Below, piece by piece: positions 4,289 through 21,800 of a stretch of 64,000 bases of DNA. Every line of letters starts with the position of its first letter. Positions within the stretch are counted from its first letter, which is position 1. The stretch covers positions 62,001-126,000 of the forward strand of contig JANYKT010000140.1 of NCBI GenBank assembly GCA_025358085.1, written 5' to 3'. Both the position numbers and the translations under genes were made by a program. The notes beneath the pieces are model-generated. The model did not search any database and had not been told where the DNA came from. It worked only from the letters and a program-made list of their open reading frames with translations. This DNA comes from Deltaproteobacteria bacterium. Lineage in GTDB: Bacteria > Myxococcota > Myxococcia > Myxococcales > 40CM-4-68-19.

Positions 4289-5158
4289 TCAACTCTTTTG
4301 CTGCGGGAGCAGGCAGGCGTAGAGGAAGTCGTGGACTGGAGTGGCCACGCCAGCCGCGAGACCATGGCGGACGACCGCAAAGGTCAGCTCGCTCAGCTCG
4401 CTGCGCCGGCCGTCGCGCAGGTCGCGCTGCATGGACGACATTGAATCGGGCGGCAGCGAGTCGAGGCGAGTGAGCGCCGCAGCCACCGCCTCGCGAGCCA
4501 AAGCAATGTTGAGACCTTGCGCGACGGCCGCGACTTCGCGCATCGCGCTCTCGAGCAGCTTGCGCGTCTCGGGTACCGCGCGAATGACGCCGGCCGGGGA
4601 CCGCGACGCGGCGCCGACCGCGCCCAGCGGCTCGACGAAGAGCAGCTTTTCCCAGAGCGTCGCGCGGATGTCCGGCACCACCTGGGCATCGACGCCCGAC
4701 GAGCGCAGCACATCGCACAGCCCTTCGGCACCCGGCCCCGCCAGCACGCGCGGCGCAAGGCCCTTGTGCTGGATGACGCCGGGCGCGGCAATCCAGCTGA
4801 AGACGAAACAGGCGCCGGGAATCGAGCCAGGCAGGAGACTGCCCGCGTCGACGCCATTCGAAAGCGGCAGGACGACGCGCGCCTTCGGTATTCGTCTCGC
4901 CAGCTCAGCCAGCTGAAAAGTCTTGACCGCGACGATGATGGCTTCTGCGCCCGCCGCGCGCGAGGGGTCGCTGGTCGCGTGCAGGCGCGCGGTGATGGTG
5001 CCGAGTGTCTCGCTCTCGAGGCGCAGCCCGTCGCGCGCGATGGCCGCCAGGTGCTCACCTCGTGCGACCGCCACCACCTCATGCCCCGCCCGCGAGAGCA
5101 GGGCCGCGAGGGTCCCACCGAGCCCGCCGACACCGATGACTGCAATGCGCATGTTCAT
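4289..5158 (-). CDS. 2-dehydropantoate 2-reductase (PanE/ApbA family)
   Basis: A 289-residue cytoplasmic NADPH-dependent reductase. It has a Rossmann motif GVGGLGGTLA at residues 8-17, the central PLSNGVDAG, and LWEKLLFVEPLGAVGA, which contains the conserved catalytic Lys and hinge. The family reduces ketopantoate to pantoate for coenzyme A, though many paralogues act on other 2-keto acids. The start chosen is the ATG at 5158 (MNMRIAVIGVGG). A longer frame upstream only adds low-complexity sequence and would break the normal N-terminus. It is monocistronic and convergent with the MFS gene, so panE is not certain. Confidence 0.85.
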   Translation of the reverse strand: MNMRIAVIGVGGLGGTLAALLSRAGHEVVAVARGEHLAAIARDGLRLESETLGTITARLHATSDPSRAAGAEAIIVAVKTFQLAELARRIPKARVVLPLSNGVDAGSLLPGSIPGACFVFSWIAAPGVIQHKGLAPRVLAGPGAEGLCDVLRSSGVDAQVVPDIRATLWEKLLFVEPLGAVGAASRSPAGVIRAVPETRKLLESAMREVAAVAQGLNIALAREAVAAALTRLDSLPPDSMSSMQRDLRDGRRSELSELTFAVVRHGLAAGVATPVHDFLYACLLPQQKS

Positions 5159-5207
5159 TTGGATGCCAGCGGCACCTTGAGGTCGCGCTGACCCTATCCC
5201 TTCAACG

Positions 5208-5396
5208 AGACGCTCAAGCGGTCCATCCTCGCTACATCGCGCTGGAGCTCGGGCAGATGTTCCGCCACTTCGGCACCGAGGTGACTTTGGTCGAGCGAGG
5301 GCCTTCGATCCCATTTGCTGCCGTGGGGTTGACGGATAAAGAGGCGGTGGCCGCGGGCCATCCCTGCTGGTGCGCGCTACCAGGACCCGGCCAAGC
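5208..5396 (+). pseudogene. Remnant of a pyridine nucleotide-disulphide oxidoreductase (Lpd/MerA-like)
   Basis: One frame reads RYIALELGQMFRHFGTEVTLVERG, split here as RYIALELGQMF then RHFGTEVTLVERG. This is the start of the NAD-binding domain of dihydrolipoyl dehydrogenase or mercuric reductase-like flavoenzymes. It runs straight into VGLTDKEAVAAGH, which belongs some 150 residues later in such proteins. The active-site disulphide domain and most of the central domain are missing, so this is a deleted relic with no plausible product. It lies directly upstream of the broken arsJ gene, as if a former metal(loid)-resistance locus is decaying. Confidence 0.6.
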
Positions 5397-5426
5397 TCTC
5401 CTGCTGCGCCGAATAGCCAAAACGGA

Positions 5427-6693
5427 TTGGACCCGGGCGCGGTATGTTCTTGCGCCCTGCGCAACTACGCCGTCGTCACCGCCGCCTATTGGGCCTTTGC
5501 GCTCACCGATGGCGCGCTGCGGATGCTCGTCCTGCTGCACTTCCATGCGCTTGGATATACGCCGGTACAGCTTGCCTTCCTGTTCCTGTTCTATGAGTTC
5601 TTCGGCATCGTCACCAATCTGCTGGGCGGATTTCTCGCGGCTCGCCTGGGCCTCAAGGTCACGCTGACCTTCGGTCTGGTGGTTCAAGTCGTGGCGCTTT
5701 TGGCCCTCGCGGGATTGCCACAGTCCTTACGCATCCCGGCCTCCGTCGCCTATGTCATGGCCGCGCAAGCACTCTCGGGCATCGCCAAGGACCTGACCAA
5801 GATGAGCGCCAAGTCTTTCATCAAGGTGCTTGTTCCCGAGGATGCCAAAGGCACGCTGTTCAAATGGGTGGCGCTCCTTACCGGGAGCAAGAACGCGCTC
5901 AAAGGAGCCGGGTTCTTCATCGGTGGACTGCTCTTGTCCCGGCTGGGCTTCAGAGACTCGCTGCTGGCAATGTCGGTGGTCGTTACACTCGTATTGATCG
6001 GAGCCCAGGCAGCGCTGCCGCGAGACCTGGGCCGTACCAAAGCAAAGGCGAAGTTCACGGGCATGTTCTCCAGAAATCGCGCGGTCAACCTGCTTTTCGG
6101 CAGCGCGCTTTTTCCTCTTCGGCGCGCGCGACGTCTGGTTCGTGGTCGGCGTGCCCGTCTTTCTCTACGGCGCCGGCTGGAGCTTCGCTCGAGTCGGCGC
6201 CTTTCTCGCGCTCTGGGTCATCGGCTATGGCGTCGTGCAGTCATTCGCGCCATTGCTGGTCCGGCGTTGGACCGGCGGCACTGCACCCAGTGGCAGGAGT
6301 CTCTCGGTGCTCGCGTTCCTGCTCGCAGGGGTCACGGCGGGCATGGCGATTGAACTTCAATTCAGCGTACAGCCGGTCACACTCATCGTCGGGGGCCTGG
6401 CGCTTTTTGGCATTCTTTTCGCGGTGAACTCTTCCATTCATTCGTATCTGATTCTTGCTTACTCAGACGGCAATCAGGTCGCGATGAACGTCGGCTTCTA
6501 TTACATGAGGAATGCGGGCGGACGACTTGCCGGCACCCTCTTGTCAGGCCTCCTCTTCCAGCGTGCAGGGATCCCCGGATGCCTCTGGGGCTCCGTGGTG
6601 TTCGCCGCGCTCGCTGGCGCGCTCTCGGTCAACCTCCCACGACTGAATCTCCAGACTCAATTTGAGCAAGACCCTGAATCGCAGACGCAGTGA
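5427..6693 (+). pseudogene. arsJ: arsJ-like organoarsenical efflux MFS transporter, frameshifted
   Basis: The conserved ArsJ opening (NYAVVTAAYWAFALTDGALR) and FEFFGIVTNLLGG-type helix (here YEFFGIVTNLLGG) are followed by SKNALKGAGFFIGG. About residue 210 the frame breaks, and the protein resumes one frame over with FFLFGARDVWFVVG through to 6693. Removing one T from the TTTT run at 6094-6097 restores the expected reading NLLSAARFFLFGARD, so this is a +1 insertion. The two parts together give the normal family length of about 410 residues. ArsJ exports 1-arseno-3-phosphoglycerate made by a partner GAPDH, but no GAPDH gene is nearby. The start is unclear: TTG at 5427 or ATG at 5370. The frameshift may be real or a sequencing error. 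Confidence 0.8.
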
Positions 6694-6790: not shown

Positions 6791-7045
6791 CTAAGCCGAC
6801 AATGTCTCGAGTCCCGCGAGCTTTGCCTCGAGCAGCGTCTGGAAGCGAGAGAGCGAATCGATCTGGACGATCTCGTCGGAGTCGAATCGCACCCCGAACT
6901 CCTCTTCGACCGCCATGATCAGGCGCAGATGGTTCAACGAGTCCCAGACCGGCAGGGACGCGCGCTGCACGTCGACGCCTGGCGCGAACTCCGTCTCCAG
7001 CGTTTCGGCAATGAGAACCCGCAGCTTGTTTCCCGTGCTGTTCAT
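6791..7045 (-). CDS. Acyl carrier protein
   Basis: An 84-residue acidic protein with the phosphopantetheine attachment motif DSLNHLRLI (Ser36) and the typical helix EEEFGVRFDSDEI. It has standard ACP length. The ATG overlaps the stop of the upstream FkbH-like gene by 4 nt, so the two are translationally coupled. Such stand-alone ACPs next to FkbH-like proteins accept a C3 unit derived from 1,3-bisphosphoglycerate, or another acyl group, for transfer to a secondary metabolite or surface glycan. It is not the fatty-acid synthesis ACP, which would sit in a fab cluster. Confidence 0.85.
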   Translation of the reverse strand: MNSTGNKLRVLIAETLETEFAPGVDVQRASLPVWDSLNHLRLIMAVEEEFGVRFDSDEIVQIDSLSRFQTLLEAKLAGLETLSA

Positions 7046-8757
7046 CGATGCTCCTTGATCGTGGCCGGGTGGGTCTTGCAGGCCTCTGCCGCGAGCGCCT
7101 TGACGTCGAGGATAGCCGCCTCGGTCCCCTCGGGCAGGAAGCGTTTCAGCCAGTCGCGCGCTGGCCCGTTGCGCGGCCCTTCCACGACATTGAAGCGGAC
7201 GCGCCGCGCCCCGCGCTCCTCGAGCCAGCCGCAAAAGCGCAGCAGTGAAAGGGTCTCTACCTCGCGCCCCAGCACGCGGCAGCTGAAGAGCACCTCGCGG
7301 ACCGTGGCCAGCTCGCCATTGAGGCGAGCGATGAGCACACCCACCAGGCCGCTGTCGGACAGCGCGTCCCTGAGCGAAACCGTCATGGTCAGATGGTCAG
7401 GAGCAAAAACTTCTTCGGTTTCGGAGGCCGATAGTCGCGCCAGTCCCAGATTGAATTGATTGGTCTTGTTCGAGAGTTCGTGAACGCGCGAAAGGTGCGG
7501 CCGGCAATCGCGGTGGAGATCGATCTCCATTTTCAGCGCCGCCAGGTATCCATTCAAGTCCCCCGCCTCCGCGCGGAGGGTCTGGCGTCTGCGGTTGGCT
7601 TGAATGTCCCCGGTACGCACCGAGGCAGCGCTGTCATCGCTGACCGCGAAGAGCCCCGGATAGTGGCGCAGCGCGCTGGCCGTCTCGACTCCGGAGGGAT
7701 CGGCGAGCAGCGTCCGGAGCCCGGAGATCGCACCGCTCGCCTTCGCCAACTCGGAATCGTTGTCGTCGACAAAGAGCATGGCTGAAGCGTGAATGTTCAA
7801 ATCAGCAGCGATGGCGACGAGGTTATCGACTTTGCGAGACCAATTGACCTTGATGGAGGCGAAGTCCGTGAGCGCGAGTCCCAGCCCGGGCCGCGACCGG
7901 AAGACAGCCTCGACATCGGAGAGCTCATTGCGCGAGCAGAGCGTGAGCAGGATGCCGCGTGCGCGAAGAGCTTTCAGCAGCTCGTGCAACTCGATGTGTC
8001 CGGGTTCAATCAATACCCCCCCGACGCCATCCTCGCCGAGCACGCCGCGCCAGAGCGTGTCGTCCAGGTCGAGCACCAGCGCTTTCAACTTCTCCCCCAA
8101 AAGCGAAGGGAGCAGGTCTGCGCCCAGGTGCCGCGCAATGGCCACTGCCGCGCCGCTCGCGAAGGGAAACTTGCTGACCTGGTCATTGCGCGGGTCGAAG
8201 AACTCGCCCCGGAAGCCGGCGCGAACCGACTCCAGATCGATCAGGCTGAGTCCCGGCAACCGCGCGGGCAAGGCACCGAGCGCCGCATTCAATGCGCGGC
8301 CCCACTTCTCGAGCCGGTCACCGGACTTGATGGGCCAGTTGTTCAGCAGCACAGGAGAGCGCCGGCCACCTGCGCGAATGGCCGCTTGCGCGCGTCCCGC
8401 TACCCATTCGGCAGCTTCCGCGGGCGTAAGCCGGTCGGCCAGAAGCCTCCAATCAAGAAAGATGAGCCGCGCGTCGGCTTCCAACCCGGATGCGTCGATT
8501 TGAGAAAGCCCAGGGTCATAGTCCGAATAGCTGGTCTGGTGATGCGCGCCCCAGGTGTCGAGAAAGGCATCAAGAAACTCATCGACGAATTCAAATGGCA
8601 GCGAGCGGTCGCAGCGGAGGCGCAGCAGCCTGCCTGTGCGGGCCGGCTTCAGACGTCGGAGCGCGGAGGCGCCTGGTGGCGTCCCGAGGAGCTGGCGGGT
8701 GGCGACCCAACCTCGAACGTCGCTCGTGCGCGGCGGGCTCACGGGCTCAAGGTTCAC
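7042..8757 (-). CDS. HAD-IIIC family phosphatase / FkbH-like protein
   Basis: A 571-residue cytoplasmic protein. The N-terminal region (1-220) resembles the SGNH-like domain of long FkbH proteins. A HAD domain follows with the motif I LVLDLDDTLWRGVLGEDG at about 227-244, and a GNAT-like C-terminal region lies at about 400-560. Characterised FkbH relatives load D-3-phosphoglycerate from 1,3-bisphosphoglycerate onto an ACP and dephosphorylate it to glyceryl-ACP. The coupled ACP gene fits this. The likely start is GTG at 8757; no clear ribosome-binding site supports it. It is divergent from the acyltransferase pair, with a gap of under 100 bp. The end product is unknown. Confidence 0.85.
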   Translation of the reverse strand: MNLEPVSPPRTSDVRGWVATRQLLGTPPGASALRRLKPARTGRLLRLRCDRSLPFEFVDEFLDAFLDTWGAHHQTSYSDYDPGLSQIDASGLEADARLIFLDWRLLADRLTPAEAAEWVAGRAQAAIRAGGRRSPVLLNNWPIKSGDRLEKWGRALNAALGALPARLPGLSLIDLESVRAGFRGEFFDPRNDQVSKFPFASGAAVAIARHLGADLLPSLLGEKLKALVLDLDDTLWRGVLGEDGVGGVLIEPGHIELHELLKALRARGILLTLCSRNELSDVEAVFRSRPGLGLALTDFASIKVNWSRKVDNLVAIAADLNIHASAMLFVDDNDSELAKASGAISGLRTLLADPSGVETASALRHYPGLFAVSDDSAASVRTGDIQANRRRQTLRAEAGDLNGYLAALKMEIDLHRDCRPHLSRVHELSNKTNQFNLGLARLSASETEEVFAPDHLTMTVSLRDALSDSGLVGVLIARLNGELATVREVLFSCRVLGREVETLSLLRFCGWLEERGARRVRFNVVEGPRNGPARDWLKRFLPEGTEAAILDVKALAAEACKTHPATIKEHR

Positions 8758-8853
8758 GAGAAGGATTTAAGTCTTGCGCTCTGACCTGCCAAGCGTGCCC
8801 TGTCTCTCTCTGAACGAAGAAAATCGCCTCCGGCGGCTTGCGCCCGGACCCTG

Positions 8854-9501
8854 GTGGCTCAAGATTTTCACCGCATGAACGTCGAGCACTCGAGCGTCCC
8901 GCGCGGCTTCAGGGGATTCCGCGGGGACTACGCCCACTATTGCCGCATGCACGGAGCAACCACCCCGCTCGACCGGGTGCTGTTGCCGCTGCGCGCGCCA
9001 GCCCTCTTTGCGCTGGCGGTCTATCGATTCGGCCGCTGGCTGCACTTTGGTTCGCGCTTGCCGCGGCCACTGGCACTTCCCCTGCGTGTCCTCTACATCG
9101 CGCTCTTTGAGATGTCGCGCCATCTGACTGGCATCCTCCTGCACACCTGGGCCGAGCTCGAGAAGGACGTCTGGCTTGGGTCCTTCGCGCCCATCATGGT
9201 CGGGGCCCGGCGCATCGGCAGCGGCAGCATGATTCACGGCGGAGTCACGCTGGGCGCGGGCGGCGCTCGCGGCGCGCGCGGCATGCCCACGCTGGGCCGC
9301 AACGTCGTTGTCGGGCCCGGCGCCAGTATCGTGGGCCCGGTCCTGGTCCCGGACGGCACCGTCCTGGGTCCAAACACCTTGATGACGAGCACGCCTTCGA
9401 CGGTCTCCGCGTGGCTCGGTGCACCTGCCATGCGCTGGAAACGTGCGCCTGAGTTGCTCATTCCTGAATACCCGGCTCGGGCTGGAGGATTTCAATCATG
9501 A
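8854..9501 (+). CDS. Hexapeptide-repeat acyltransferase, serine acetyltransferase-like
   Basis: A 215-residue protein (GTG 8854; an alternative ATG at 8875 trims seven residues). An N-terminal helical half carries ALAVYRFGRWLHF. A C-terminal left-handed beta-helix is built from repeats such as IGSGSMIHGGVTLGAG and LGRNVVVGPGASIVGP. This CysE-like layout is common in exopolysaccharide clusters, where the enzyme moves an acetyl group from acetyl-CoA to a sugar or serine-like acceptor. The stop overlaps the next gene's ATG by 4 nt. The His of the CysE active site is present in IHGG. Together with its paralogue and the divergent FkbH/ACP pair it suggests a small acyl-decoration module. Confidence 0.78.
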   Translation: MAQDFHRMNVEHSSVPRGFRGFRGDYAHYCRMHGATTPLDRVLLPLRAPALFALAVYRFGRWLHFGSRLPRPLALPLRVLYIALFEMSRHLTGILLHTWAELEKDVWLGSFAPIMVGARRIGSGSMIHGGVTLGAGGARGARGMPTLGRNVVVGPGASIVGPVLVPDGTVLGPNTLMTSTPSTVSAWLGAPAMRWKRAPELLIPEYPARAGGFQS

Positions 9502-10145
9502 GCGAAGGCATCATCGTTGCGGTGCGGTCGCCGAGCGAGCCTTTCTGGCCAGCTTTCCGCGCCGACCTGCACCGCCACTTCGTTTACCGTCCAGATGCGA
9601 GCCTCCTCCGGAAGCTCACCATCTGCCTGATGGTCGAAGGGATCTGGGCCATGGCCGTCTATCGCTTTGGCCGCAGCCTGCGAACGCGGGGCGGTCCTTT
9701 CCTGGTCTTCTGGCCCCTCTTTGCCCTCTGGGAGATGGCGGTCCGGATCCTCACGGGCATTCAACTCGATATCGGCGCGGAGATTGGTCCGGGCTTCTAT
9801 GTCGGGCATCACGGAGCCATCTATGTCGGGCCGGGAAGCCGGATCGGTCCCGATTCGAACATTGGTCAGATGTGTTATGTCGGTTCGGCCATGGCCATCC
9901 AGGGCGCGGCGCCGGTGATTGGCGCGCGGGTCTATCTGGGGCCGGGCTGCAAGGTAGTGGGCGCGGTGAAGATTGGCGACCGTGCCGCCATCGGCACCGG
10001 CGCGGTCATCCTCGACGACGTGCCCGCAGGCACCACCGCGGTAGGAAATCCCGCGCGCGTGGTCAGCAAGACCGGCTCGGACGATCTGATCTATCTGGGG
10101 AAAGGCACGCCGCTCCCGACCGGCGTCGCCGCGGCCGATCTATAA
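9498..10145 (+). CDS. Hexapeptide-repeat acyltransferase, serine acetyltransferase-like (second copy)
   Basis: A 215-residue paralogue of the preceding gene, coupled to it by a 4-nt ATGA overlap. It shares the helical half (MAVYRFGRSLRTRGG) and the beta-helix with IGPGFYVGHHGAIYVGPGSR and IGDRAAIGTGAVILDDVP. The GHHG sequence aligns with the catalytic His region of CysE. The last turn PAGTTAVGNPARVV is typical of sugar O- or N-acetyltransferases. The two copies differ enough to have different acceptors. The gene ends 35 bp from the convergent kinase gene. Confidence 0.8.
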   Translation: MSEGIIVAVRSPSEPFWPAFRADLHRHFVYRPDASLLRKLTICLMVEGIWAMAVYRFGRSLRTRGGPFLVFWPLFALWEMAVRILTGIQLDIGAEIGPGFYVGHHGAIYVGPGSRIGPDSNIGQMCYVGSAMAIQGAAPVIGARVYLGPGCKVVGAVKIGDRAAIGTGAVILDDVPAGTTAVGNPARVVSKTGSDDLIYLGKGTPLPTGVAAADL

Positions 10146-13918: not shown

Positions 13919-15076
13919 TCAGGCTGCCTTCGGAAGCGATTGGGCCGGCTGGCCAGCGAGCACTCGCCGGTACAGTTCGCCAGTCTTCCGACTCATGACC
14001 GGCAAGGTCAGCTCCGCCTGGACCCGCGCGCGCCCAGCCGCGCCCAGCCTGCGCGCGAGTGAGGAGTCGCGGAGCAGGCCGATGAGCTGCTCCGCCAGCA
14101 AGTCGGGACTGTGCGCGGCGACCAGACGTCCCGAGGCGTCCGGGCCGTCCACGCGCACCAGCTCGACATTGCCGCCCACCGCGGTGGCGACCACCGGAAG
14201 GGACGCGGCCATCGCTTCGATGAGCGCGTTTGAGAGTCCCTCGGCGTGCGACGCGAGGCAGGCGACATTTGCCCGCGCCAGCAAGGCCGGGACATCGAAG
14301 CGGTGTCCGAGCAGCAAGACGGTTTCCTTGAGGCCGCGCTCCGCGATCTGTTGCTCGAGCGTCGCGCGCATCGGCCCTTCGCCGGCACAGAGCACCAGCA
14401 CGTCGGGGACCGCGAGGCGGGCCCGATCGATTGCCTCGATCAAATCGAGATGGCCTTTGACGGGGGAGAGGTTGCCAATCGCGACCACCGTGGGCCGGCC
14501 GGAGGGGAAAGGAAGCTCCGGCTCCCGCTGCGCCGCCGCGTCGAAGGCCGGTAGATCGAGGCCATTCTGCACCACGCACACGCGCTCTGCCGGCACGCCC
14601 TCTTCGTCCACGCAGAGCGCTCGCACGGCCTCGGCATTGACGTAAACCGCATCGGCCGCTCTGCACGCCACCGCTTCGACCAGGTGGTGAGCGCGCGAGT
14701 ACCAGTGCCCAAGATCGAAACGGCTGCAGATCACCTTTGCGCCCACCAGCCGCGCGGCCGGGACCGCAAGCAGGTTGGCGTAGAAGTCGTTGGCGTGAAT
14801 GAGCTTCACGCCTTCACGCTCAAGGAATGCCGCGAGCTTCAAGATCTGGTGACCGGTGTTGAGCTGCGCGAGCCCGCCCTTGAGGCCGAACTCCTCGACG
14901 AAGAAGCCCAGCTTCTCAATCTCGGCCAGGTGCGGACCCGCCTTGTTGATGCAGGCAACCACCGGCCGAAACCCGGCGGGATGGCCGCGAAGGCGCGCGA
15001 CGAACTGCTCCTCGGCACCGCCGATCGCGAATTGATTGACGAGCTGGAGGACGGGCACCTCTTGCCTGGAAGCCAC
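13919..15076 (-). CDS. Glycosyltransferase family 4 protein
   Basis: A 385-residue GT-B enzyme. The N-terminal half has the acceptor-side motif QFAIGGAEEQFV near residue 15 and IHANDFYANLLA near 95. The C-terminal donor half has VVAIGNLSPVKGHLDL (about 190) and the GT4 signature ASHAEGLSNALIEAMAASLPVV (about 273), where the E-x7-E pair binds the nucleotide sugar. It probably adds a sugar to a lipid-linked or lipid A-linked glycan at the inner face of the membrane. The start is GTG at 15076, 6 nt after the stop of the O-antigen ligase-like gene, so they share an operon. Confidence 0.92.
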   Translation of the reverse strand: MASRQEVPVLQLVNQFAIGGAEEQFVARLRGHPAGFRPVVACINKAGPHLAEIEKLGFFVEEFGLKGGLAQLNTGHQILKLAAFLEREGVKLIHANDFYANLLAVPAARLVGAKVICSRFDLGHWYSRAHHLVEAVACRAADAVYVNAEAVRALCVDEEGVPAERVCVVQNGLDLPAFDAAAQREPELPFPSGRPTVVAIGNLSPVKGHLDLIEAIDRARLAVPDVLVLCAGEGPMRATLEQQIAERGLKETVLLLGHRFDVPALLARANVACLASHAEGLSNALIEAMAASLPVVATAVGGNVELVRVDGPDASGRLVAAHSPDLLAEQLIGLLRDSSLARRLGAAGRARVQAELTLPVMSRKTGELYRRVLAGQPAQSLPKAA

Positions 15077-15082
15077 GAACGA

Positions 15083-16426
15083 TCACCCCACCAGGCCCAG
15101 CGCGGGCAGCTCGCTGTTCGCGGGCGGCAGCACTGCCGGCTGGCTTTTTGTCCTATGCCCCCAGATGTCCAGGCATGCGGCAAACGCGCAGAGCGCATAC
15201 AGGAACCAGCTCAACGAGTAGCCCGAGAAGAGCTGGCAGACGAGGTACCCCACCAGCGCCGCGAAGACGGCGCGCGCCTCTCCGCCGAGCTCGCCATTGC
15301 GGGCGCGCCAGCCTGACCAGAGTGAGCAGAGCAGCAGACCCACCATGCCGAACAGTCCGACCAGGCCCAGCTCGCCGACCACCTCGAGAAAGAGGTTGTG
15401 AGCCACGTAGGGGTGATCGATGGGCGCGTCGATGGCTGCGTATTGCTTCCAGGCGGCGAGGAAACTGGCCTCGCCCACGCCCAGAAGCGGGCGTTCGCGG
15501 ACGATGCGGAAGGCCACGTGCCAGGCGTTGACGCGGCCCTGGACGCTGACGTCCTCGGCATATCCGGCGATGGTTTCATTGCGCTGCCAGAAACTCTGCG
15601 GTGCGAGGATGAGCACGCCAGCCGCGGCCACCAGGACGACCAGTCCGGCAACGGCCTTGCGCCGCGACATGAGCGCGAAGACCACCACGCTGACGGCGAG
15701 TCCCAGCGAACCGCCGCGCGAGTGGGTCGCGATGATGCCCATCAGGCAGACGACCACGCCGACAGCGCCGACGATGCGCTTGAACCAGTGCTGGTTCTTG
15801 CCGATGGCGAAGAAGAGAAGAATGGGCACCACGCCGACCAGGGCCATGGCGTCGTGATTCGGGTCCGCGAGCACGCCCAGCCAGCGGCCGCGGAAGCCTT
15901 CCACCAGCAGGAGGTCGTGGCTGTAGTTCCACCAGGTTCCCCAGGCGGGAATGATGGCAGCGGCGCAGTAGAGGAACAGCGAAGTCCGGATCCGTTTGGG
16001 CGTATTGGCGGTGTTCAACACCGAGAGGAAGAAGATGAAGTGCTTCGCGACCTCCATGGCGCCGAAGATCGTGGCTGGGCGATCGATGGCCCACATCGGC
16101 GAAAGCACTGCCGTACCCGCGTAGACCGCGAGGAGAGCGGTGCGCCAGCCCATCCAGAGCGGCTGGTTCGTGAGCACGCGGTGCAGGAAGATCGCCAGGA
16201 GGCCTACCAGCGAAAGCATGAGCGGCAAGTGGAGCGGCTCCAGCCACGGCTGCCACTGCCCGAGCGACAGATAGGACTGCGCGGTGAAGAGGGCGACCGC
16301 CCAGAAGCCGATGCTGGCGATCGTCGATGCTTGCCAGCGGCGCGCTGAATCTCCGCTTCCGGAAATCACCAGATCCTGCGTTGCGGCGATTTGCACCAGA
16401 ACCTCCAACGCGGAGAAGCCGCGCAC
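15083..16426 (-). CDS. O-antigen ligase family membrane protein (Wzy/WaaL-type)
   Basis: A 447-residue protein with about 11-12 hydrophobic segments. It has the Wzy_C-type periplasmic loop: THSRGGSLGLAVS near residue 215 and a second loop GVGEASFLAAW with HPYVAHNLFLEVVGELG around 310-335, where the conserved His and Arg residues of ligases lie. The family polymerises O-units or transfers undecaprenol-linked glycan to lipid A core. The start used is GTG at 16426, without a strong ribosome-binding site. It is first in a two-gene unit with the GT4 gene. Confidence 0.85.
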   Translation of the reverse strand: MRGFSALEVLVQIAATQDLVISGSGDSARRWQASTIASIGFWAVALFTAQSYLSLGQWQPWLEPLHLPLMLSLVGLLAIFLHRVLTNQPLWMGWRTALLAVYAGTAVLSPMWAIDRPATIFGAMEVAKHFIFFLSVLNTANTPKRIRTSLFLYCAAAIIPAWGTWWNYSHDLLLVEGFRGRWLGVLADPNHDAMALVGVVPILLFFAIGKNQHWFKRIVGAVGVVVCLMGIIATHSRGGSLGLAVSVVVFALMSRRKAVAGLVVLVAAAGVLILAPQSFWQRNETIAGYAEDVSVQGRVNAWHVAFRIVRERPLLGVGEASFLAAWKQYAAIDAPIDHPYVAHNLFLEVVGELGLVGLFGMVGLLLCSLWSGWRARNGELGGEARAVFAALVGYLVCQLFSGYSLSWFLYALCAFAACLDIWGHRTKSQPAVLPPANSELPALGLVG

Positions 16427-16876: not shown

Positions 16877-18901
16877 TTGAAGTCATTCATCTTCGGTATC
16901 GCAGCCGCACTTGCCGTCGCAGGAAGCGCATCCGCAGCGCAGGTCTGGGTCGCTCCGTCGTCCATGAAGGTCCGCCCGGCCATGCAGCCGGCCGCGAACG
17001 CCCCCGTCGTGGCGAACCTTTCCGCAGCCCAGAATGAGTTCGAAGCGTTTCAAGTCGTGGTGAGCGGACAGGCCACCGGGATGTCGATGGCGCTCGAGTC
17101 CATGACCGACGGCGCTGGCCACAGCATCTCGGGCCGCGAGCTGGTGCTCTACCGCGAGGCGATTATCAATGTTCAGTTCCCCAGCGGCGGCGATGGTGCC
17201 GCTGGTGCCTGGCCCGACGCGCTGATCCCTGATGTGGACCCAATCGTGGGCGAGAAGCGCAACGCCTTCCCCTTCGACGTCCCCGCGGGAGAAAACCGCG
17301 TGGTGCTGGTCGACATCCACGCCCCGGCCGGCACGCCCGCGGGCACCTATCATGGCAACGTGGTGGTCACCGGCAGCGTGTCCGCCAACATCCCGGTTAC
17401 GCTGACCGTGTGGGACTTCGCGGTGCCCTCGACCTCGACGTTGAAGAGCGCGTACGGCATGTCGTGGAACGGCCCCTGCATGGGTCACGGCGACGCCAGC
17501 TGCGGCAACTACGCGGCGGAGATGGCGCTTCGCGCTCGTTACGTGCAGGCCGCGCTCGACAACCACATCTCGATCTACGCGCCCTTCTACACCTCGACCG
17601 TGGACGCGAACGGCAACGACACCAACTGGACCGCCTTCGATCAGTACGTCGGCCCGGTGCTCGATGGCACCGCCCCCACCCGCCTGCAGGGCGCGAAGCT
17701 GACGGCGGTGCAGGTCAATGGCCCCACCACCACGCCGGTCGTCGGTGCCTGGGCAAAGCACTTCAAGCAGCACGGCTGGCCGCAGCTCTTCACCTACGTT
17801 TGCGACGAGCCGCCGCTGACCTGCAACTGGTCGGACATCGCGAGCCGCACCGCCGCCTCGCACGCTGCTGACGCCTCGGTCCCGACGCTGGTCACCACCA
17901 CTACCGACGAGGCCAACAAGCAGGGCGCAACAGGCATCGACCTCTTCGTGCCGGTGGTGAACTTCATGGACGGCAAGACCGACCACCAGGGCAGCCAGCG
18001 CGCGAAGTACGGCGCCACCGCGTGGTGGTACCAGTCGTGTATGTCGTTCGGCTGCTCGAGCGTGGGCGGCGGGCGCGACGGCACCGGCGAGACCGGCTGG
18101 CCCTCCTACGCCATCGACACCGACGGCACCCGCAACCGCGCGCAGGAGTGGATGTCCTTCGCGTACAACATGCAGGGGGAACTCTACTACGAGACCACGC
18201 AGGGCTACTTCAACGGCGACCCGTGGTCGAACCAGTGGAACTTCGGCGGCACCGGCGACGGCAACCTTTTCTACCCGGGCACCCCGGCGAAGATTGGCGG
18301 CACCACCGAGATCCCGGTCGAGTCGCTGCGCATGAAGGGCATCCGCGACGGCATGGAAGACTACGAATTCCTCGCACTGGCGACCAGGCTGGGCGCCGGC
18401 GCGCAGGCGCTGAAAATTGCCCAGGGCCTCTTCCCGCACACGTACCTGTCCAGCATCACCGCGGACAGCATCGACGCGGCCCGCGCTGAGCTGGCCGGCC
18501 TCATCCTCCACGCGCTGGGCAAGGACGTCGTCGCCACCGGCGGCGGGTCGGGCGGCACTGGCACCGGCGGCACTGGCACCGGCGGCACTGGCACCGGCGG
18601 CGCTGGCACCGGCGGCACCGGCACCGGCGGCACCGGCACCGGCGGCACCGGCACCGGCGGCACTGGCACCGGCACTGGCACCGGCGGCACTGGCGGAACC
18701 GGCACCGGCACCGGCGGAACTGGGCCCGGCGGCACGGGCGCGACTCCGACCACGCAGCCTCCGGTCATTCCGGTCCTGAAGGCGAACGCCGGCGGCTGCT
18801 CCAGCGGGGGTGCGCAGACGGCGTGGCTCGCTCTCCCCCTCTTTGCGATGGTGGGACTGCGCCGCCGCCGGGCCCTGGGCCTGGTGCGCCGCCGCAAGTA
18901 G
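16877..18901 (+). CDS. Exported DUF4091-domain protein with MYXO-CTERM-like tail
   Basis: A 674-residue protein. It has a signal peptide (MKSFIFGIAAALAVAGSASA) and a large body of GH123/DUF4091 type, ending with the family motif SLRMKGIRDGMEDYEFLALA near residue 480. A low-complexity Gly-Thr linker (about 555-625) follows. The tail is GGCSSGG (about 637), a hydrophobic segment and RRRR. This tripartite tail matches MYXO-CTERM sorting signals, which anchor or process proteins at the myxobacterial outer surface, so the catalytic part is probably displayed outside. DUF4091 proteins are glycoside-hydrolase-like. The TTG start is supported by GGAGG 5 nt upstream. The substrate is unknown, presumably a polysaccharide. 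Confidence 0.82.
   Translation: MKSFIFGIAAALAVAGSASAAQVWVAPSSMKVRPAMQPAANAPVVANLSAAQNEFEAFQVVVSGQATGMSMALESMTDGAGHSISGRELVLYREAIINVQFPSGGDGAAGAWPDALIPDVDPIVGEKRNAFPFDVPAGENRVVLVDIHAPAGTPAGTYHGNVVVTGSVSANIPVTLTVWDFAVPSTSTLKSAYGMSWNGPCMGHGDASCGNYAAEMALRARYVQAALDNHISIYAPFYTSTVDANGNDTNWTAFDQYVGPVLDGTAPTRLQGAKLTAVQVNGPTTTPVVGAWAKHFKQHGWPQLFTYVCDEPPLTCNWSDIASRTAASHAADASVPTLVTTTTDEANKQGATGIDLFVPVVNFMDGKTDHQGSQRAKYGATAWWYQSCMSFGCSSVGGGRDGTGETGWPSYAIDTDGTRNRAQEWMSFAYNMQGELYYETTQGYFNGDPWSNQWNFGGTGDGNLFYPGTPAKIGGTTEIPVESLRMKGIRDGMEDYEFLALATRLGAGAQALKIAQGLFPHTYLSSITADSIDAARAELAGLILHALGKDVVATGGGSGGTGTGGTGTGGTGTGGAGTGGTGTGGTGTGGTGTGGTGTGTGTGGTGGTGTGTGGTGPGGTGATPTTQPPVIPVLKANAGGCSSGGAQTAWLALPLFAMVGLRRRRALGLVRRRK
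18541..18740 (+). repeat. GC-rich minisatellite encoding a Gly/Thr linker
   Basis: Near-perfect repeats of a 15-bp unit based on GGCACTGGCACCGGC encode (GTGTG/GTGGT)n between the catalytic body and the sorting tail of the DUF4091 protein. Third-position C/T changes distinguish the copies. Repeat number is likely to vary between strains. Confidence 0.85.
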
Positions 18902-20915: not shown

Positions 20916-21800
20916 ATGGCCGACAGCAAGCTTGACCGAGAGTTTCTCAAGTCGATTCTCTCGCTCGCGGCGAAGCCGGTGGTGGACCATCTGCTCATGG
21001 TCACGGACGTACCGCTCTCGACCCAGGACCTGCGCGGGCGCCCGCTGAAACGGAAAATCATTTACGCCGTCACCGAGGAGCAGCTCGCGGTGCCGCTGCG
21101 CAAGAATGGCTACGTCTGCGTGACGGTTCCGCCCTACGACTACTCGCGCGTCGAGAAGGTGAAAGTCGCGCTGGTGGCGGCGATGACCGCGAATGTGCTC
21201 CGGGAAGGCGAGGACGTGCTCTGCCTCACGGGTCGCTCGGGCGCGCGGCTTCCGGACACGGTGGTGCACCTTCAGATCGGCCGCGGGTTCGAAGAGAAAG
21301 CGGCCATCGACACGCAGGGCCTCGGAGCCGAATTCTCCTCTCAGGTGGTCGAGGCGCTGGTCTCGCTCGCCATGGCCGTCGGGCACGAGGGGTTCGAGGG
21401 CCATCCCATCGGCACCATCTTCGTGCTGGGTCACTCGACCGAGGTGATGGAGAAGAGCAAGCAGCTGACCATCAATCCCTTCCAGGGCATCAGCGAGGCC
21501 GAGCGCAACGTGCTCGACCCGAAGATCCGCGAGGCGCTGAAAAATTTTGCTGTGCTCGACGGAGCGTTCGTCATCCGGGAGGACGGGGTGGTGCTCGCCG
21601 CCGGACGCTACCTGCAGGCTGCCGACGGCAACAAGGTGGAGCTCCAGCTGGGCCTCGGCGCGCGGCACGCAGCGGCCGCAGCCATCACGGTCGAAACCTC
21701 GGCCATTGCGATCTCGGTCTCGCAGTCAAGCGGCACGGTCCGAATCTTCAAGGGCGGGCAGGCGCTGCTCGAGTTGCAGCAAGTGGCCCGGCGGAGCTGA
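20916..21800 (+). CDS. Diadenylate cyclase, DacZ-like
   Basis: A 294-residue soluble protein. The N-terminal half (about 15-130) resembles the pyruvate-kinase C-terminal-like alpha/beta domain of archaeal DacZ. The C-terminal DAC (DisA_N) domain carries the DGA motif in VLDGAFVI and the second motif as ARHAAAAAIT, where DisA and CdaA have RHR. DAC domains join two ATP into cyclic di-AMP. The third residue of RHR is Ala here; as I recall archaeal DacZ also deviates at that place, so activity is likely but not proven. No membrane helix or DNA-binding HhH domain is fused. It lies 62 bp upstream of hemE on the same strand. Confidence 0.82.
   Translation: MADSKLDREFLKSILSLAAKPVVDHLLMVTDVPLSTQDLRGRPLKRKIIYAVTEEQLAVPLRKNGYVCVTVPPYDYSRVEKVKVALVAAMTANVLREGEDVLCLTGRSGARLPDTVVHLQIGRGFEEKAAIDTQGLGAEFSSQVVEALVSLAMAVGHEGFEGHPIGTIFVLGHSTEVMEKSKQLTINPFQGISEAERNVLDPKIREALKNFAVLDGAFVIREDGVVLAAGRYLQAADGNKVELQLGLGARHAAAAAITVETSAIAISVSQSSGTVRIFKGGQALLELQQVARRS

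Follow-up and report, generated by a model that had tools for sequence, protein, structure and literature searches.

A putative carrier-protein-dependent acyl transfer cassette of FkbH, an acyl carrier protein and two CysE-like β-helical proteins in a Myxococcota genome

What does an FkbH-like protein make when two acyltransferase-like genes, rather than a polyketide synthase (PKS), stand beside it? This question is raised by a four-gene set found in a 64,000-nucleotide stretch of DNA (hereafter, the window) from Deltaproteobacteria bacterium (GCA_025358085.1, contig JANYKT010000140.1, positions 62,001 to 126,000), which lies on a 139,887-base contig of a 5.4-Mb genome with 98% completeness. 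The set encodes an acyl carrier protein (ACP), FkbH, and two left-handed β-helix (LbH) proteins denoted HexA and HexB. FkbH chemistry has so far been described mainly as a supply of polyketide starter and extender units, and a minimal four-gene cassette that would deliver C3 units of glycolysis directly to an acceptor gives a small, testable non-polyketide glyceryl-ACP system. We conclude that the set is probably a self-contained, carrier-protein-dependent acyl transfer cassette, in which FkbH would form glyceryl-ACP and HexB, together with a degenerate HexA, would transfer the acyl group with no condensing enzyme. The parts and their residues, the conservation of the set, the fusions and module swaps in relatives, and the His asymmetry between HexA and HexB were all read from sequence. 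The genes are arranged as follows, where G005 is a genome of the same family and another genus:

6791..7045, minus strand: ACP, 84 aa; PF00550, 22.2 bits (cut-off 20.8); Ser36 in WDSL is the phosphopantetheine site
7042..8757, minus strand: FkbH, 571 aa; TIGR01686, 215.8 bits (cut-off 146.65)
8758..8874, between the two pairs: divergent intergenic region; counterpart in G005 of ~96 bp
8875..9501, plus strand: HexA, CysE-like LbH protein with Ser at the catalytic-His position; PF00132, 33.4 bits
9498..10145, plus strand: HexB, CysE-like LbH acyltransferase with His104; PF00132, 41.6 bits

Inspection confirmed the four genes and their contiguity; they form two divergent pairs with a 4-base ATGA overlap within each pair. 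The ACP starts at the ATG at 7045, so that 4 bases are shared with the FkbH stop, and the identical overlap was observed in G005. A longer open reading frame (ORF) at 6791-7234 was rejected as the ACP because its start lies within FkbH. An alternative GTG start of HexA is located at 8854, and the start at 8875 was chosen by alignment with G005. The intergenic region probably holds both promoters; no sigma-70 consensus was found there, and a scan for sigma-70 promoters and terminators gave nothing exceeding chance.

The original prediction of an FkbH-like protein coupled to an ACP was borne out by the TIGR01686 score, the full residue set, and the overlapping genes. FkbH, which has a single copy in the host genome, consists of an SGNH-like N-terminus, a HAD core, and a GNAT-like C-terminus that bears Cys493 in the motif SCRVLGR. 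Its HAD residue set is complete (D230xD232xT234, S275, K309, and D331-D332), and the catalytic Asp and Cys residues on which the predicted glyceryl transfer depends are all in place. In an alignment with 29 homologues, for which domains embedded in nonribosomal peptide synthetase (NRPS) and PKS proteins of G079, G092, and G094 were used as controls, this residue set, the Cys of SCRVLGR, and the motif NKTNQFN were conserved with the embedded FkbH domains. An AlphaFold (AF2) model of FkbH with a pLDDT of 82.5 gave BF1531 of Bacteroides fragilis (3slr) as the top PDB match, and further fold matches were obtained with MDP-1 for the HAD core, GNAT for the C-terminus, and TesA and PAF-acetylhydrolase for the N-terminus. 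The nearest named relatives are derived from metagenome-assembled genomes of “Deltaproteobacteria”/Myxococcales. When 42 FkbH domains were placed in a maximum-likelihood tree, the window protein paired with that of G005 (100/99); this pair was joined next by G009 and a Paenibacillus protein (100/97) and then by FkbH of loci often holding GNAT and/or VOC proteins (100/100), and the main NRPS/PKS-embedded clade stood apart (100/99). The Cys of the FkbH family, here Cys493, is presumably the acyl-holding residue. By analogy with described FkbH-ACP pairs, which place a C3 unit from 1,3-bisphosphoglycerate onto the ACP (PMC7489565), the window proteins most likely form glyceryl-ACP.

For HexA and HexB, the closest curated models were those of EpsC and CysE, to which both scored far under the cut-offs (HexA, 50.7/52.4 bits and HexB, 86.2/98.5 bits against 210.65/150 for TIGR01172/NF041874). 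Identity with CysE was ruled out by these scores, and a better CysE candidate is located elsewhere in the genome. HexB possesses both the hexapeptide repeats and the catalytic His expected for an LbH acyltransferase, its His104 being aligned with the catalytic His position of serine acetyltransferase (8i04); HexA possesses the repeats only. The same column holds His in all nine HexB-like (B-type) proteins and in none of the seven HexA-like (A-type) proteins, in which Ser, Ser, Pro, Pro, Pro, Asp, and Glu were found. Two acyltransferases had been predicted; this stands for HexB and is doubtful for HexA, because HexA is devoid of the catalytic His that HexB keeps. HexA is hence a probable non-catalytic partner, which points to LbH pairs with an apparent dedicated pseudoenzyme as one of the two members.

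All four genes were found in G005 in the same layout, including both ATGA overlaps, with identities of 58% for FkbH, 56% for ACP, 59% for HexA, and 70% for HexB. The immediate flanks of this set differ from those in the window, consisting of a response regulator, DUF47, and a PHO4 transporter on one side and a GreA-like gene, identified by eye, on the other. Since genes like these flanks occur in G000 at a greater distance upstream of the window, the wider region is regarded as rearranged synteny. The four genes are thus not random neighbours in relatives; they recur together despite the different immediate flanks, as the original prediction had proposed to check.

Acyl transfer by the LbH proteins without a condensing enzyme was supported by gene fusions and swapped ACP-loading modules in relatives. 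Homologues of HexA and HexB are fused into one protein of ~425 aa in G002, G009, and G010, and in G002 and G009 the genes of an ACP and an acyl-AMP ligase come right after it. No FkbH was detected in the examined assemblies of G002 and G010, and the FkbH-ACP pair present in G009 is unlinked to the fused gene. A single HexB homologue is preceded in G062 and G045 by an ACP, an adenylation enzyme (TIGR01733, 348 bits for G062), and an enzyme of acyl-CoA-dehydrogenase fold, for which the best solved relatives are prolyl-ACP/prolyl-PCP dehydrogenases (4irn, 406.6 bits; tested for G062). Most simply, these observations suggest an LbH family that would take unusual acyl groups off a dedicated ACP, with a loading enzyme that may be exchanged; acyl-ACP as the LbH donor is what we infer from the ACP neighbours and the fusions. 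Islands composed of a prolyl-ACP dehydrogenase-like enzyme, an adenylation enzyme, an ACP, and a CysE-like LbH acyltransferase were observed at L073:6863-10517 and L072:9797-13440, which probably make and transfer a pyrrolyl or dehydroprolyl group.

A second type of fusion was found in five Myxococcota (G006, G012, G036, G041, and G141), where an LbH-FkbH protein is directly followed by an LbH-ACP protein, so that two genes carry the same four domains as the window set. The ACP part exceeded the PF00550 cut-off (20.8 bits) in G012, G036, and G141 and fell below it in G041 and G006 (16.4 and 17.3 bits), with the serine of WDSL/WTSL present. The catalytic His, matched to His115 of galactoside acetyltransferase by alignment for G036, is kept in the ACP-linked LbH domain (5/5) and lost in the FkbH-linked one (5/5); the FkbH-linked domain of G141 has a His two residues earlier than this column. 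The pairing of a live and a dead LbH domain recurs in two LbH branches, which argues for a real partner role. The FkbH domains of the five fusions grouped together in the tree (100/100), separately from the window/G005 pair. The linkage to LbH required two changes in the best tree, and the well-supported branches alone are also compatible with one origin. Because the LbH domains of the fusions are closer to galactoside/maltose acetyltransferases than to CysE, the FkbH-LbH pairing probably arose twice. The G012 pair is adjoined by a WecG/TagA glycosyltransferase and the G041 pair by a GT2-LbH protein, and other neighbours of the fusion pairs were identified by eye from sequence. At L080:11452-13101, a GT2 glycosyltransferase carrying an LbH acyltransferase domain at its C-terminus adjoins the LbH-FkbH/LbH-ACP pair.

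The substrate, the mode of acyl transfer, and the part played by HexA are inferred as follows. FkbH would bind a phosphorylated glycolytic C3 acid, which is 1,3-bisphosphoglycerate in characterised relatives, and its HAD domain would take off the phosphate. Cys493 would then hold the glyceryl group and hand it to the phosphopantetheine on Ser36 of the ACP. His104 of HexB would activate an acceptor OH or NH2 group, onto which the glyceryl group would move from the ACP, and HexA would serve as a structural, acceptor-binding, or ACP-docking partner. Several observations pull the other way: the complete unfused set occurs in 2 genomes only; no acceptor gene is conserved beside it; C3 acids other than glycerate are conceivable substrates of FkbH proteins; an ACP is missing next to the HexA-HexB fusion of G010; and fusions and gene neighbours indicate functional linkage, not chemistry. 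The AF2 model of a fused HexA-HexB (L069) had a pLDDT of 38.8 and was uninformative on the pairing. A broader proposal, which we put forward tentatively and hold to be somewhat short of probable, is a modular class in which a catalytic and a His-less LbH protein take an unusual short acyl group from a dedicated ACP without a condensing enzyme. The loader would be swappable (FkbH for glyceryl, an acyl-AMP ligase, or prolyl adenylation with dehydrogenation), and the FkbH version would have arisen twice, once as the LbH-FkbH/LbH-ACP fusions.

As to the acceptor, the analogy with the LbH-FkbH/LbH-ACP fusions makes a glycan plausible, and a sugar is our leading guess; in its favour are the fusion loci, the FkbH-ACP-GNAT-VOC cassettes next to FdtA, and natural glyceric-acid glycans (PMC3068675). 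Glycan genes are not found adjacent to the unfused sets. HexB might instead acylate an amine, an alcohol, or an amino acid with the glyceryl group, so that the product would be a small molecule or lipid and no glycan. The set and its adenylation-type relatives form islands without adjacent glycosyltransferases in G005, G002, G009, G062, and G045, where, for example, the set of G005 is flanked by DUF47 and a PHO4 phosphate transporter; the fusion relatives and the FkbH-ACP-GNAT cassettes beside FdtA, however, neighbour sugar genes, and we consider this alternative unlikely, though worth keeping in view.

The original prediction drew its glycan link from two genes near the set:

13919-15076: GT4 glycosyltransferase, the nearer of the pair, 3.8 kb from the set
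15083-16426: O-antigen ligase (Wzy_C), the other member of this pair

Both are present at that distance, the interval between the set and GT4 being occupied by genes for a hybrid histidine kinase and a MEDS protein, and the cassette might accordingly decorate their polysaccharide. Wzy_C (66%) and GT4 (71%) also share the contig of the G005 set, and glycosyltransferases of the WecG/TagA and GT2 types adjoin the G012 and G041 fusion pairs. In G005, however, the two genes lie ~13 kb off with unrelated genes between, and the same Wzy_C is conserved at 59-65% in G001, G002, G004, G008, and G010, genomes in which the four-gene set is missing. For these two reasons, the ligase and GT4 were ruled out as part of the set and are best read as background synteny outside the unit, the link drawn from the neighbourhood is weak, and decoration of their product is doubtful. 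No paper on FkbH with a polysaccharide, O-antigen, HAD-IIIC, or capsule system was found in the open-access literature searched, and FkbH was not mentioned in the flagellin-glycosylation papers checked. The poorest prospect, that FkbH and ACP make a C3-ACP for one product and that HexA and HexB are ordinary acetyl-CoA O/N-acetyltransferases for the same or another product, divergence reflecting co-regulation only, fits their resemblance to the acetyl-CoA enzymes CysE/EpsC/WcaB and the G010 fusion lacking an ACP beside it, but is improbable against HexA/HexB relatives adjoining dedicated ACPs and loading enzymes of differing chemistry and LbH domains fused to FkbH and to ACP in 5 genomes.

Other genes were noted around the set. 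An ArsJ-like organoarsenical exporter of the major facilitator superfamily (5370-6693, plus strand) lies beside the ACP and is split over two frames (5370-6353 and 6142-6693), which is a frameshift or an assembly error. A link between ArsJ and FkbH via phosphoglycerate chemistry was rejected, as the G005 set has no ArsJ with it and the window gene carries the frameshift. On the plus strand, 16877-18901 encodes a secreted GH123-domain protein (71% in G005) that has a linker rich in Gly/Thr and ends in a MYXO-CTERM-like tail identified by eye, and 20916-21800 encodes a diadenylate cyclase (DAC) domain together with a sensor domain of the DacZ_P family, whose name refers to an archaeal-type enzyme although the host here is a bacterium.

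Among known systems, the tetronate glycerate operon and methoxymalonyl-ACP sets (tetromadurin mad7/mad8 and mad14/mad12) likewise combine an FkbH-like protein with a stand-alone ACP. Unlike them, the window set has LbH proteins and is devoid of a FabH-like condensing enzyme, an acetyltransferase/dehydratase pair, dehydrogenases, an O-methyltransferase, and a PKS. As stated in the original prediction, no condensing enzyme was detected in a Pfam scan of the main ORFs from 93 to 24015, where the FabH-like enzyme and acetyltransferase/dehydratase that accompany FkbH-ACP in tetronate loci were likewise not found; the two dehydrogenases and O-methyltransferase of methoxymalonyl-ACP sets are absent from both flanks, and the nearby gene at 4289-5464 is ketopantoate-reductase-like. 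LpxA and LpxD are LbH enzymes that take an acyl group from ACP using a catalytic His. HexB differs from them in belonging to the CysE/EpsC branch, in its dedicated ACP and FkbH, and in its His-less partner, and it would transfer a C3 unit instead of a fatty acyl group. The CysE/EpsC serine acetyltransferases are the closest sequence relatives of HexA and HexB, of which HexB keeps their catalytic His position and HexA does not.

FkbH-ACP loci with GNAT and/or glyoxalase-fold (VOC) proteins were observed at L026:1086-4357, L027:9544-12815, L025:1583-4119, L022:9848-12840, and L030:9398-12947. Those of Verrucomicrobiota lie beside FdtA, probable RmlA, and aminotransferase genes, suggesting that such loci N-acylate amino sugars. 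FkbH-ACP followed by a MaoC-like protein was found at L118:7804-9178, L121:8043-9502, and L078:4303-5792, the MaoC-SDR fusion being confirmed by Pfam in L121. The FkbH-ACP-GNAT-VOC cassettes beside FdtA-type genes (L025-L027 and others) resemble the window set in having FkbH of the same supported clade, an ACP by an acyltransferase, and no condensing enzyme seen; they differ in that GNAT replaces LbH, a glyoxalase-fold protein is added, and amino-sugar genes are adjacent. The flagellin glycan of Campylobacter jejuni contains di-O-methylglyceric acid on pseudaminic acid (PMC3068675), in which the glyceric acid unit, though O-methylated, is attached directly to a sugar, as it would be here with a sugar as the acceptor.

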